A stretch of 27,983 bases of DNA from a virus. Every line of letters begins with the position of its first letter. The first letter of the stretch is position 1. A model generated the notes under the pieces. That model did no database searches and had not been told where the DNA came from. It saw only the letters and a list, made by a program, of their open reading frames with translations. The stretch is from the IMG/VR virus record IMGVR_UViG_3300043015_001304, positions 1-27,983 of that record; one strand, written 5' to 3'. A program made the translations under genes and the position numbers. Positions 3,129 through 24,023 of the stretch are shown here, one piece after another.

Positions 3129-3131
3129 CTA

Positions 3132-3153
3132 CTGAGTTTTTAACGAAGCTCTT
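3132..3153 (+). repeat. 22-bp direct repeat, copy 1
   Basis: The 22 bases beginning CTGAGTTTTTAACG and ending AAGCTCTT recur at 3377-3398 with one difference (T to C). Partial copies follow at 3364-3374 (first half) and 3399-3410 (TAACGAAGCTCT). The two full copies lie on either side of the hairpin terminator and the promoter-like motif. Confidence 0.75.
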
Positions 3154-3158
3154 AACTG

Positions 3159-3240
3159 TACCCCTCTCGGTATCTCTGCTTACTTGTCCTTTATTAAGGA
3201 TAGGTAGGTGGAGGTATCGGGAGGGGTAGTTATTTTTTTT
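3159..3240 (+). terminator. 33-bp hairpin terminator after the small-gene array
   Basis: Bases 3159-3191 pair with 3196-3228 without a single mismatch or bulge when G-U pairs are allowed (25 Watson-Crick and 8 G-U pairs), leaving a 4-base loop TATT (3192-3195). A run of T follows (3230-3242). The G-U pairs would be A-C mismatches in the other strand's RNA, so the fold is maintained for + strand RNA. It should end transcription of the small-gene array. A stem this long is also a plausible RNase III substrate. Confidence 0.85.
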
Positions 3241-3276: not shown

Positions 3277-3297
3277 AAATAGTTGACCTTTAAGAAT
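3277..3297 (+). promoter_or_regulatory. Phage promoter-like motif, copy 1
   Basis: Contains AATAGTTGACCTTTAAGAAT (3278-3297). It is identical over 24 bases (3277-3300) to copy 3 (23889-23912). Compared with the SP6 promoter as I recall it, the shared elements are TAG-TGAC in the upstream half and A-GAA at the start site, placing a putative start at G 3294. It lies between a terminator and a structured leader. A host sigma-70 reading (TTGACC at 3283 with TACTAT at 3305, 16-bp spacing) is possible for this copy, but the other copies lack a matching -10. Confidence 0.6.
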
Positions 3298-3338
3298 AAA
3301 CGTCTACTATAAGTTAGGCTGAGATTCTTGCTAGGCTC

Positions 3339-3561
3339 TGTCCTGTTAATACCTATCTACCTACTGAGTTTTTATACTGAGTTTCTAACGAAGCTCTTTA
3401 ACGAAGCTCTATTGGGACTTCTACTGACATCTGAAAGAAGTATCCTGTATGCCCCCCGATGATGTCCTATGTAGAAACTAAGTTCTTTTAGCTCTTAGTA
3501 GTGTCTCTTTTTAGAGATGCTATGCGGGGGGTTTAAAAGGTAGATAGGTATTAACAGGATA
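3339..3561 (+). ncRNA. Branched structured RNA or packaging-site element
   Basis: Bases 3341-3362 and 3538-3559 are perfect 22-bp inverted repeats (TCCTGTTAATACCTATCTAC plus CT on the left), extended to 24 pairs at 3339-3561. Inside are a stem of ACTTCT/AGAAGT (3417-3422/3436-3441), a CCCCCCG/CGGGGGG stem (3452-3458/3525-3531), and within that two hairpins, ACTAAG/CTTAGT (3477-3482/3494-3499) and an 8-bp stem around 3501-3520. Together these make a multi-branched fold. There is no T-run after it, so it reads as a leader or DNA site rather than a terminator. It starts about 45 bases after the promoter-like start and ends 142 bases before the small terminase gene. Confidence 0.6.
3377..3398 (+). 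repeat. 22-bp direct repeat, copy 2
   Basis: Second copy of the unit at 3132-3153, with C instead of T at 3385. Its neighbours 3364-3374 and 3399-3410 are partial copies of the left and right halves, giving a small cluster of repeats inside the outer inverted repeat. Confidence 0.75.
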
Positions 3562-3703
3562 CCCTAGTGTATTGATTATTATATAAATAAAATTTAATGT
3601 TTTCATATAGTTAATTATTAAATTATATGATGATGTTTTTAATGGTTTTTTATTTCAAATTGTAAAAATAACTTGCCGTATCGAACAACAAAAGGAGGTT
3701 CAC

Positions 3704-4069
3704 ATGCCGGATAATCGTAAAGACAAACGTGGTGGTTATAAAGAGGGCGGTGGCCGTCCTAAAGGTTCTAAGAATATTAACTCTATGGCTAGTGTTAAGA
3801 AGCTACAAGAACTTGGTTTTGACCCCATTGAGATGATGGTAAAGAAATATAAAGAAATTCAGAAAAAGCTAGATAAGTTAGAGACTCAAGGTAAAGACGG
3901 TACAGGAGCTTATGCTCAGATGACTGCTACCCAAGGCACCTTGATTAACAATCTAATGGCTTACGGTTATAAGAAGATCCCTGATAAACTAGAGCAAGAG
4001 ATTACTGAGAAGAAACCTATTGCTATTAAACTAACTACTAATACTGCTACAGAAGAAAATAAAGAATAA
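3704..4069 (+). CDS. Terminase small subunit-like protein
   Basis: A 121-residue basic protein. It starts after a strong AAAGGAGG site. Near the N-terminus GGYKEGGGRPKGSKN (about residues 10-24) is the Gly-Arg-Pro-Lys arm typical of phage DNA-packaging small subunits, which can contact DNA in the minor groove. It continues with helices (VKKLQELGFDPIEMM and YKEIQKKLDKLETQ) and a polar tail. Position supports the call: it opens the packaging block 560 bases before the large terminase. Small subunits recognise the packaging site and load DNA onto the large subunit; the structured element immediately upstream could be that site. Confidence 0.75.
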   Translation: MPDNRKDKRGGYKEGGGRPKGSKNINSMASVKKLQELGFDPIEMMVKKYKEIQKKLDKLETQGKDGTGAYAQMTATQGTLINNLMAYGYKKIPDKLEQEITEKKPIAIKLTTNTATEENKE

Positions 4070-4628: not shown

Positions 4629-5960
4629 ATGTCAGATATAGTATTACATGCTAAACAGTCTAAAGTTATTCAAGACTTGTTTGTAGACAAAACTTGTAGA
4701 TATGGTGTAGTTACTGCTAGTCGTGGTTTTGGTAAGTCTTACTTAGCTGCTGCATCTGCATTAATTGCTGTACAAGAGCTAATGGATCTTCCACCAGATA
4801 CTCCTAATAAGAATGTTGCTTTAATCGCGCCTACTTACTCTCAAGCTGTAGATATTTATTATCCCCTTATTGCTTGGCAAATGGGTATGGAGGATTATGC
4901 AGATAAGTCTTCTAAAGCAGCAGGTACTTTTTGGTTCCCCAACAATGTTATATTAAAACTATGGTCCTATGAAGCATCTCAACGGATGCGTGGTACAGGA
5001 CAATACTTTGTTGTTGCTGATGAGGTAACATCTTGGAAAGGTGCTGGGATGAACCTAAAAGAATCTTGGGAGTCTGTTATTCAGCCCTGTGTATCTACAC
5101 GTTGGTCTAGACAAAATGCAGAGAAATATGGTGCTAATCCCGGTAGAGGTTTGATTATTAGCACACCAAGTGGTTATGATTATTTTTACGAAATGTATAA
5201 TAGGCAAGAGTACGATGATGATTGGAAAAGCTATCATTTCGATTACAAGGATTCTCCATTTCTTGATGAAGAAGAAATTGAGAGAGTAAAGAGGACACTA
5301 GACCCTCTGAAGTTCGCAAGAGAATATCTTGCTAGCTTTGAAGACTCTGGTAATAATGTGTTTTATACCTTTAATAGAAAAGAACATCTTGATAGCACTT
5401 TACCCTACTTCGAAGCGGGTGAAGATGTACATGCTGCTATTGACTTTAATGTCGGTATTCAAGCAACAGTATTATTTGCTATTAGAGGTAATCAAGTTCA
5501 TATCTTAGACGAAACTCAGGGCCACCCTGATACAGAGTCTTTAGCTAATTATCTTAAAGATAAGTTTAAAGGACATCGTATTATATCGTATCCTGATCCT
5601 GCAGGTAGGGCCAGAAAGACGTCTGCTGCTGTTGGAATTACAGATTTTAAGATATTAGAGTCTAAAGGTATTATTACAAGAGCACATAATAAAGCACCAC
5701 CTATTATTGATTCTGTTGCTGCTGTAAACAGGAAATTTAAAAATGCTAGTGGTGATATAGATATGTATATTCATCCCAGAGCAGTAAATACTGTAAAATC
5801 CATTGAAAGAACTCAATGGGTAGAATCTAACCCTGATTCTGCAACTATTGATAAGAAAGAAGGGGTAGAACATTGGTCAGATGCTCTCCGTTATGCTATA
5901 GAGTATTTGTACCCAATTCGAGCTGGAACTAGACTTACTGTAAAAGGGTTTGGTTTCTAA
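4629..5960 (+). CDS. terL: Terminase large subunit (packaging ATPase and nuclease)
   Basis: A 443-residue protein that pumps DNA into the prohead and cuts the concatemer. The ATPase domain has a Walker A-type loop SRGFGKS at residues 31-37, Walker B FVVADE at 127-132 (Glu 132 catalytic) and a coupling motif STPSG at 178-182. The C-terminal RNase H-like nuclease shows its acidic residues in AIDFNVG (Asp 272), YPDPAG (Asp 323) and HWSDALRY (Asp 418). Length is normal for the family. The ribosome site is weak, so translation may be coupled to the tiny gene ending seven bases before. Unusually, the portal gene is about 18 kb further on rather than next door. Confidence 0.95.
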   Translation: MSDIVLHAKQSKVIQDLFVDKTCRYGVVTASRGFGKSYLAAASALIAVQELMDLPPDTPNKNVALIAPTYSQAVDIYYPLIAWQMGMEDYADKSSKAAGTFWFPNNVILKLWSYEASQRMRGTGQYFVVADEVTSWKGAGMNLKESWESVIQPCVSTRWSRQNAEKYGANPGRGLIISTPSGYDYFYEMYNRQEYDDDWKSYHFDYKDSPFLDEEEIERVKRTLDPLKFAREYLASFEDSGNNVFYTFNRKEHLDSTLPYFEAGEDVHAAIDFNVGIQATVLFAIRGNQVHILDETQGHPDTESLANYLKDKFKGHRIISYPDPAGRARKTSAAVGITDFKILESKGIITRAHNKAPPIIDSVAAVNRKFKNASGDIDMYIHPRAVNTVKSIERTQWVESNPDSATIDKKEGVEHWSDALRYAIEYLYPIRAGTRLTVKGFGF

Positions 5961-7684: not shown

Positions 7685-8565
7685 TGGCTACAAAAATTAT
7701 TCTTAAAAAGTCTACTGCTAGCGGCGCAGCACCTCTTGTTGCAGATCTGGATCAGGCAGAATTAGCGATTAACCTTGCTGATCGTAAAATTTATACCAAA
7801 GACAATAGTGGAGCTATTGTTAAGCTTGATGGTGCTTATGTAGACCCCGTTGCACCTGGTAATCCGTCTAAAGGCGATATTTGGTATGATACAGAAAATA
7901 ATTATCTTAAAGCTTACAACGGTTCAGCGTGGGTTAATGCTGGTTATACAACTCTTGGAGAGTTTGGTATTACAGCAACCGCATCAGAACTAAATATCCT
8001 TGATGGTGCTACTTTAACTACTATTGAGTTAAACCATGTGGATGGTGTTACTGGCCCTATCCAAACACAACTAGATGGTAAAGCTGCTTCCGTTCATACT
8101 CATACCTCTACTAATATTACAGATTTTAATGAAGCTGCTCAAGACGCAGTAGGTGGCATTATCTCAGGTGCGGGTATTGTTTCTGTTACTTATGATGATA
8201 ATACAAATACTATTACTGTTTCCGCAACTGAAGCAGACACTCTTGACTCTGTAACAGATAGAGGTAATACTACTGGTAACAGTATTACTGTAGGTTCTCT
8301 TCAAACAACAGCTAATGTTACAGTAGGTGGTAATCTGATTGTTAACGGTACTACTACCACTGTCAACTCAAACGAAGTTAATATTGGTGACTCTACTATT
8401 CTTCTCAACTCGGATGAAACGGGTAATCCTAGTCTAGACGCAGGGTTTGAAGTAAATCGTGGCACAGAGAATAATGTTTCTTTTGTATGGAATGAAACAG
8501 ACGATGCTTGGGACATGGGTAACGAGACACTTCAGAATGTTATAATCGACGGTGGTGCTTACTAA
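7684..8565 (+). CDS. Tail fibre protein with Mtd-like N-terminal domain
   Basis: A 293-residue protein. The N-terminus (about residues 1-48, MATKIILKKSTASGAA through AINLADRKIYTKD) resembles the small anchor domain at the start of the major tropism determinant of phage BPP-1 and many fibres. Residues about 58-84 are a GDIWYDTENNYLKAYNGSAW module. TASELNILDG near residue 100 is a known phage fibre repeat, and the C-terminal part has GNLIVNGTTTTVNSNEV, typical of marine phage fibres. The next gene carries a paralogous N-terminal domain. It probably anchors to the tail tip and binds a receptor or further fibre parts. Confidence 0.75.
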   Translation: MATKIILKKSTASGAAPLVADLDQAELAINLADRKIYTKDNSGAIVKLDGAYVDPVAPGNPSKGDIWYDTENNYLKAYNGSAWVNAGYTTLGEFGITATASELNILDGATLTTIELNHVDGVTGPIQTQLDGKAASVHTHTSTNITDFNEAAQDAVGGIISGAGIVSVTYDDNTNTITVSATEADTLDSVTDRGNTTGNSITVGSLQTTANVTVGGNLIVNGTTTTVNSNEVNIGDSTILLNSDETGNPSLDAGFEVNRGTENNVSFVWNETDDAWDMGNETLQNVIIDGGAY

Positions 8566-23617: not shown

Positions 23618-23894
23618 CGTAGCTGCTAATACTCAGGCAGGGAAAACCAACAATCAAACAATAGGTACAACTGAAGTAGATGAAGGACAAAAGATAGTAA
23701 GACCGAAAGCTAGAGATATTACTCAAACTAGTGAGGAAAACTCTAACAAAGTACAATCGGATAAAATTGAAACCGTAGTAGTAAATGAACTTGATCCAAA
23801 GTTCTTATTAATGTTTATTTTTGCCTTTATTGTATGGTCTTATTTCCTTTATATGCTGCCTTCTCCTGATCAAATTTGGAAGAAGAAAAAATAG
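23487..23894 (+). CDS. Unimolecular spanin (u-spanin) candidate
   Basis: A 135-residue protein after TAGGAG (23475-23480). The N-terminus is a lipoprotein signal: basic MQKWLKSWFGPRLR, a hydrophobic core, and lipobox VSSC with Cys 29. The middle is polar and Thr/Asn-rich (SGPNVAANTQAGKTNNQTIG). The C-terminus has a membrane helix (FLLMFIFAFIVWSYFLYML, about 106-124) and a lysine tail. An outer-membrane lipid anchor plus an inner-membrane C-terminal helix in one chain is the layout of T1 gp11, and the length is similar. It would fuse the two membranes at lysis. The stop TAG is part of promoter copy 3. Confidence 0.8.
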   Translation: MQKWLKSWFGPRLRLLVLLLGLIGIVSSCGATSPLSLLTGSGPNVAANTQAGKTNNQTIGTTEVDEGQKIVRPKARDITQTSEENSNKVQSDKIETVVVNELDPKFLLMFIFAFIVWSYFLYMLPSPDQIWKKKK

Positions 23895-23909
23895 TTGACC
23901 TTTAAGAAT
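23889..23909 (+). promoter_or_regulatory. Phage promoter-like motif, copy 3
   Basis: Contains AATAGTTGACCTTTAAGAAT (23890-23909), and is identical over 24 bases to copy 1. It overlaps the u-spanin stop codon (TAG 23892-23894). The putative start is G 23906. No reading frame follows; the next 80 bases form two hairpins. Confidence 0.6.
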
Positions 23910-23990
23910 AAAGAGACAGGTTTAGACTCTCAAGTTTACCTGAATGTCTCTTTATGGGTGTAGTTAATTTCTATTGCTACACCCCTCATT
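23906..23990 (+). ncRNA. Possible short two-hairpin RNA
   Basis: From the putative start of promoter copy 3, the first hairpin pairs 23909-23918 with 23945-23954 (10 bp, TAAAGAGACA/TGTCTCTTTA) plus three inner pairs after a 4-base bulge. The second is the stem at 23956-23984. The transcript would be about 80-85 bases with no start codon in a useful context. It could be a small RNA or an RNase III processing site between the lysis and head operons. Confidence 0.4.
23956..23990 (+). terminator. Terminator-like hairpin between lysis and head operons
   Basis: GGGTGTAG (23956-23963) pairs perfectly with CTACACCC (23977-23984), plus one G-U pair inside and a loop of about 11 bases. The following CTCATTTAT is a weak T-run, so termination may be partial. 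It sits before promoter copy 4. Confidence 0.55.
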
Positions 23991-24002
23991 TATAACACAA
24001 AT

Positions 24003-24023
24003 AAATAGTTGACCTTTAAGAAG
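24003..24023 (+). promoter_or_regulatory. Phage promoter-like motif, copy 4
   Basis: AATAGTTGACCTTTAAGAAG (24004-24023) matches the SP6 promoter, as I recall it (TTTAGGTGACACTATAGAAG), at 13 of 20 positions. The putative start is G 24020, giving a 16-base leader to ATG 24036 that consists almost wholly of the ribosome site. It would drive the portal/head operon. Confidence 0.65.

Follow-up and report, generated by a model that had tools for sequence, protein, structure and literature searches.

The pseudoknot in the T4 gene 32 leader is an operator near the start of one gene, and the hairpins and RNase III sites of T7 late mRNAs are simple hairpins. The RNA described here resembles the former as a pseudoknot in a probable phage mRNA leader, and the latter as a structured RNA in predicted transcripts of a single-subunit phage polymerase; it differs from the former in that the next gene and the spacing vary, and from the latter in having a junction, a pseudoknot and an invariant core. 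GOLLD and ROOL, the ornate RNAs that phages and prophages encode, are ~660 to >800 nt long and often lie near tRNA islands, and, like the present element, they are phage-encoded orphans, supported by covariation, pseudoknotted and engaged in kissing interactions (PMC12286853); they are far larger than the 239 nt found here, and the present RNA has no Rfam match. Flaviviral exonuclease-resistant RNAs form a compact pseudoknotted block to 5'-3' decay (PMC5760640), at most a functional analogy, with a different topology and no homology.

The pRNA of phi29 is likewise a phage RNA with a closing helix, a three-way junction and two hairpins with complementary, covarying loops, with packaging genes nearby. 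A three-way junction with covarying loop complementarity is found here as well, where the pairing may be within or between molecules. Unlike pRNA, which has no sequence or covariance-model match here, the present RNA pairs a loop with a stem interior over 6 bp, and its genomic neighbor is a canonical large terminase (TerL; Terminase_6N, PHROG) rather than gp16, with close TerL relatives that lack the RNA.

An inverted repeat upstream of the terminase genes

The window (the whole stretch of DNA analyzed) is an isolated virus record of 27,983 nt. A preliminary description had reported a perfect 22-bp inverted repeat (24 bp with flanks) around 175 bases, and this is exact: the arms at 3341-3362 and 3538-3559 are complementary at 22/22 positions with a spacer of 175 nt. 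By our own arithmetic, at this length and base composition, chance alone would yield ~3e-6 such perfect 22-nt repeats per window with spacers of ≤350 nt allowed. Addition of the flanks, U3339-A3561 and one G-U pair at 3340/3560, gives a helix, P1, of 24 pairs; the outer stem had also been called free of G-U pairs, which holds for the 22 pairs but not for the 24 (G3340-U3560). An outer helix, P0, extends P1 beyond a short internal loop, and the C6G/CG6 inner stem of the preliminary description was located at 3452-3458/3525-3531. The minimum free energy of 3339-3561 is -91.9 kcal/mol versus -51.3 ± 4.4 kcal/mol for dinucleotide shuffles (z = -9.15, 0/200). Absent from that description is a pseudoknot between GACATC (3426-3431) and GATGTC (3461-3466). 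From P0 to P0, the RNA comprises the 239 nt given above, and its parts and surroundings are as follows.

3159-3240, + strand: terminator-like hairpin and T-run at the end of the upstream operon; 33-nt arms, 76% complementary, 4-nt loop
3278-3294, + strand: T7-type phage promoter AATAG-TTGACCTTTAA-G; G3294 is the predicted first base
3330-3335, + strand: P0 5' strand, from the fold; 6/6 P0 pairs show two-sided change in the family
3339-3362, + strand: P1 5' strand, 24 pairs here; 11/12 modeled pairs show two-sided change in the family
3366-3409, + strand: extra hairpin in J1/2, in this phage only, from the fold; partly repeated at 3130-3153
3414-3445, + strand: P2 hairpin, 3414-3422 with 3436-3445, A3442 bulged
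3423-3435, + strand: L2, the 13-nt loop of P2, ACUGACAUCUGAA; flanks UACU/UGAAA conserved
3426-3431, + strand: pseudoknot 5' half GACAUC; 5/6 pairs with two-sided change, 99.6% of cells paired
3452-3458, + strand: P3 5' strand CCCCCCG; six P3 pairs invariant in 41 distinct sequences
3461-3466, + strand: pseudoknot 3' half GAUGUC, beginning 2 nt past the P3 5' strand
3467-3524, + strand: apical part of P3, variable, with additional hairpins, from the fold; length differs across relatives
3525-3531, + strand: P3 3' strand CGGGGGG, from the family alignment
3538-3561, + strand: P1 3' strand, from the inverted repeat and fold
3563-3568, + strand: P0 3' strand, from the fold and family alignment
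3569-3690, no strand assigned: AT-rich stretch, 83% A+T; in relatives it accompanies the terminase gene rather than the RNA
3704-4069, + strand: putative small terminase (TerS), 121 aa, from position, size and synteny in all loci
4629-5960, + strand: TerL, 443 aa (PHROG E 8.8e-34; Pfam Terminase_6N E 1.6e-11)

The gene order 3' of the RNA is thus putative TerS (3704), a small ORF (4081) and TerL (4629). The 121-aa ORF at 3704 has no match in a Pfam search, and we assign it as putative TerS by position, size and synteny; it is 39.6% identical over 76% to its counterpart in the DSS3 phages. TerL is 65-66% identical to the TerL of the Ruegeria phages DSS3_PM1 and DSS3_VP1 (Naomviridae). The carriers of the RNA are an uncultured, widespread phage lineage of marine type related to Naomviridae, to which these dU-DNA roseophages belong.

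Searches for known RNAs returned nothing at the element. Rfam 15 at the gathering score gave no match in the window and none at the element in 15 relatives, and a search of three members with E up to 5 gave chance matches only, the sole one in the window being U7 at 12.2 bits. ARAGORN on the window found nothing, and tRNA and tmRNA were set aside. Against 50,697 phage records, neither the region nor the RNA of a relative had a blastn match, and searches of the open-access literature turned up no description of the element. A hammerhead was rejected, with CUGA...GAAA present and CUGAnGA missing. A pattern scan of 84,980 bacterial and archaeal genomes gave six matches, all lacking the pseudoknot complementarity and attributed to chance; one pattern match with this complementarity, in L211, lies outside the family context and is probably chance as well. 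The leader of DSS3_PM1, considered as a hidden homologue, has an unremarkable folding stability (z = -1.0) and no model match. A group I intron was also set aside: the one in the relative L002 (6422-6693), near the terminase genes, is located downstream of the RNA. The DSS3_VP1 TerL is likewise annotated as two pieces.

Covariation and apparent block exchange in the RNA family

We collected 80 loci with homologues of the TerS ORF from IMG/VR, all on contigs that are fragments and from collections that may omit the closest relatives of the window. Many relatives harbor an inverted repeat of different sequence at the same place, and at least 40 distinct relatives have a common architecture upstream of the same putative TerS gene. 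P0 and P1 form the outer helices and lead to a three-way junction, the hairpin P2 ends in a 13-nt loop, P3 is the invariant stem CCCCCG/CGGGGG, and a 6-bp pseudoknot pairs the P2 loop with the interior of P3. The shared core reads UACU-[6 nt]-UGAAA in the P2 loop, then CCCCC(C)G, 2 nt and a sequence exactly complementary to the six loop letters. R2, a covariance model built from ten members with the pseudoknot left out, retrieved the window (E 1.1e-12) together with divergent members, including L023, L061 and L063, which the first pattern had overlooked. The match in the window spans only 3409-3539 because a 44-nt hairpin is inserted there between P1 and P2, which sets the window apart from most relatives; unrelated hairpins occupy J1/2 or J2/3 in others. 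There is one RNA copy per contig, and the antisense matches of R2 are as expected from inverted repeats.

In an alignment of 43 members, 41 of them distinct (A4), 99.1% of the cells form standard pairs versus 40-47% with the partner slid, and 28/37 pairs show two-sided (compensatory) change; for each measure, 0/500 shuffles reach these values. By helix, two-sided change was found in 6/6 pairs of P0, 11/12 of P1 and 5/6 of P2, counts that are biased toward the structure in that A4 was fitted to P0-P3; the corresponding 5/6 in the pseudoknot is free of this bias since the pseudoknot was left out of R2, although the pattern that supplied some of the loci placed a loose constraint on its 3' half. 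The sequence and length of P1 change completely (~7 pairs in L040/L043, 24 in the window and ~50 in L133). The six CCCCCG/CGGGGG pairs of P3 do not vary among the 41 distinct sequences, and a scan that dropped the C-run requirement returned only loci already known to carry the C-run. Pairing is thus kept in relatives through compensatory change, so that the refutation test that the preliminary description had set beforehand, a lack of such conservation, does not refute it. The helices P0, P1, P2 and P3, the three-way junction and the 6-bp pseudoknot are shown by comparative sequence analysis. That this is a real structured RNA family is, on these grounds, virtually certain. The preliminary description had suggested a noncoding RNA that matches no known class and lies after a promoter in the leader of the packaging operon; the covariation, the promoter (see below) and the lack of an Rfam match lend this strong support.

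With exact complementarity required for each label, the pseudoknot occurs in eight versions (GACATC, GGTACT, GATACT, GGTATC, GATATC, GACATT, GACAGT and AACATC), each with its complement; mapped onto a tree of TerS with weak inner branches, they require a minimum of 12 changes. Between L038 and L041, the 48 nt from promoter to P1 are identical and the stretch from the P3 3' arm to TerS agrees at 96.4%, while identity across P2, the pseudoknot and the P3 5' arm is only 60%; each of the two kinds of block is also seen elsewhere (L008/L029/L041 versus L006/L013/L038). The P2/pseudoknot block looks as though it is exchanged as a unit, by recombination of a module that needs an internal match, and selection for differing pairing codes is possible.

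Association of the RNA with a predicted phage-polymerase promoter

A motif AATA[C/G]-N11-G lies upstream of the RNA in most loci. Its N11 differs by clade (CTGACGTTTAA, TGCCGACTAAT or TGCCCCCTTAT) at constant spacing, and the motif is found one to three times per contig in relatives, on the gene strand only; further copies in the window are at 23894 and 24008. A T7-like RNA polymerase is encoded in the near-complete relatives and in both DSS3 phages. The locus thus has the fixed upstream block, the fixed spacing to a G and the cognate single-subunit polymerase in relatives of a T7-type promoter, with a predicted start. By analogy to T7, the G would be the first transcribed base, and position 3294, which the preliminary description gave in placing the element after promoter copy 1, coincides with this predicted start. 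In most members, transcription would begin ~30-40 nt upstream of P0; in L040/L043, P1 itself opens with the predicted first base. Because a T7-type promoter precedes it at most loci and the predicted first base opens P1 in these two loci, the RNA very probably belongs to the 5' part of a late transcript made by the phage polymerase.

The RNA is upstream of the terminase region at every locus, with differing neighbors. In L189, a 247-aa gene (at 8456) begins 20 nt past the RNA and TerS follows later. The same gene lies between RNA and TerS in L013, where it also parts the RNA from the AT-rich stretch, which sits before TerS. A small ORF precedes TerS in L133, and additional small genes intervene in L040, where TerS is ~1.3 kb from the RNA. 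In four loci (L051, L053, L054 and L056), the promoter is retained 176 nt upstream of TerS but the RNA is absent. R2 has no match in the whole DSS3-phage genomes, and several relatives with terminase genes have no RNA on the contig searched. As far as these partial contigs show, the RNA follows the promoter and not the terminase gene, since the next gene and distance vary while the promoter stays, and it appears dispensable in some lineages.

One of the roughly three late promoters per genome carries the RNA. 5' hairpins also come after other promoter copies of the family, and several of them are more stable than shuffles (z to -5.5). At 23894-24020 of the window, two promoter copies with portal-side genes downstream flank a short conserved hairpin, GAGACAG...CUGa..GUCUC, with an asymmetric bulge, and a strong second hairpin follows; L240, L241, L242 and L244 are similar with differing loop sequences. 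These hairpins are possibly a second small RNA or a processing or termination element. For W01:42912-44033, W02:24386-25507 and G001-G004, a virion protein of ~1450-1510 aa, annotated "minor head protein-like" in DSS3_PM1, was noted besides the T7-like polymerase; it scores marginally above the Pfam RNA_pol cut-off and could be a virion-carried RNA polymerase.

Proposed function and alternative explanations

We tentatively favor, at somewhat under an even chance, a 5'-end module acting in cis as the role of this new RNA family, which would make up the 5' domain of late (packaging/structural) transcripts, because of the promoter link, the independence from the next gene, the position of P1 at the predicted first base in L040/L043 and the simpler hairpins at other late promoters. 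The RNA would fold cotranscriptionally while leaving the phage T7-type polymerase, the long P0/P1 helix would conceal the 5' region and the pseudoknotted junction would provide a compact, nuclease-resistant head, such that a long late mRNA may be protected or marked at its 5' end regardless of the gene that comes next. Protection in cis as the main function is plausible but doubtful. An invariant P3, the loop letters UACU/UGAAA and the pseudoknot are unneeded for plain protection, which suggests a specific partner; plain protection also does not predict the block exchange in L038/L041, which counts against it, as do the restriction of the RNA to one of about three late promoters and the relatives with promoter only. 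A specific partner of the invariant core seems better explained by a stand-alone small RNA acting in trans, which an RNase III-type cut of P1 or 3' trimming would release as a stable pseudoknotted RNA and which would bind a phage or host protein in the late phase. P0 and P1 join both ends, as in many stand-alone RNAs, the long P1 of the window and L133 would suit it, the junctions tolerate extra hairpins, the unvarying P3 and the conserved loop letters hint at a partner and there is no dependence on the downstream gene; however, no terminator was recognized by eye directly 3' of the element, and the P1 of L040/L043, by inspection, is too short for RNase III. We regard this trans-acting RNA as the main rival, though rather unlikely overall.

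The position in a leader and the compact pseudoknotted junction with conserved loop letters, such as aptamers have, would suit a cis-regulatory sensor, either a riboswitch or an operator bound by a protein, that adjusts transcription or translation of the first late gene (terminase, for example), but inspection revealed no pairing that would compete for a ribosome-binding site or a terminator, P0/P1 seems too stable for switching and the next gene and spacing vary. Such a sensor is improbable, and the earlier idea of a leader controlling terminase gains no support in that form, with an RNA that stays with the promoter as gene and distance change and promoter-bearing relatives that lack it. A packaging-motor RNA acting with the adjoining terminase, its loops possibly pairing between molecules, would share the general plan of phi29 pRNA, a junction with interlocking loops (PMC5340915), and would account for the location upstream of terminase genes at all loci and for loop specificities that vary and are exchanged as blocks. 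Against this stand the canonical Terminase_6N TerL, the DSS3 phages, which have no RNA-model match genome-wide at 65-66% TerL identity, the several relatives whose searched contigs encode terminase but not the RNA, and the absence of a pRNA match in Rfam, which make a packaging role highly improbable. Fainter still is the chance that loop pairing between molecules builds a homo-oligomer with a self/non-self pairing code whose types are swapped among phages, and that this serves packaging as a second, so far unrecognized kind of packaging RNA alongside an ordinary terminase. A DNA-level site, either the cos/pac end of the preliminary description or a transcription-primed replication origin with an AT-rich melting zone, would fit the adjoining terminase, the AT-rich DNA downstream and contig ends that cluster 5' of TerS, 30/52 of those ≤5 kb away falling in the first 1 kb and 8 in the nearest 100 nt upstream. 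This cluster may mark the end of the genome or places where hairpins and AT-rich DNA broke the assembly; the ends are spread with no single base, and strong hairpins break assemblies. Moreover, pseudoknot complementarity and strand-specific loop letters are single-strand features useless in duplex DNA, orientation and spacing are fixed relative to the promoter, and the AT-rich stretch parts from the RNA in L013, all of which leave a DNA site the slightest of chances.

What is new here is a well-supported RNA class outside Rfam at the head of a late operon in a widespread uncultured phage lineage, an RNA family and not a proven new mechanism. Its eight covarying pseudoknot versions, the differing blocks in near-identical phages and the lineages without the RNA make up a natural mutational series, which lets one test what a phage gains from so elaborate an RNA on its late mRNA.

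Two further observations concern the flanking DNA. The sequence ACTGAGTTTYTAACGAAGCTCT occurs at 3130-3153, before the upstream terminator, and again at 3376-3397 in the extra hairpin of the RNA, which looks like the duplication of a small hairpin unit. Finally, a conserved-looking segment at 3640-3690, after the AT-rich stretch and shortly before TerS, reads, for example, ATAACTTGCCG in the window and ATATCTTGGCA in relatives, and might be another promoter or a site bound by terminase.
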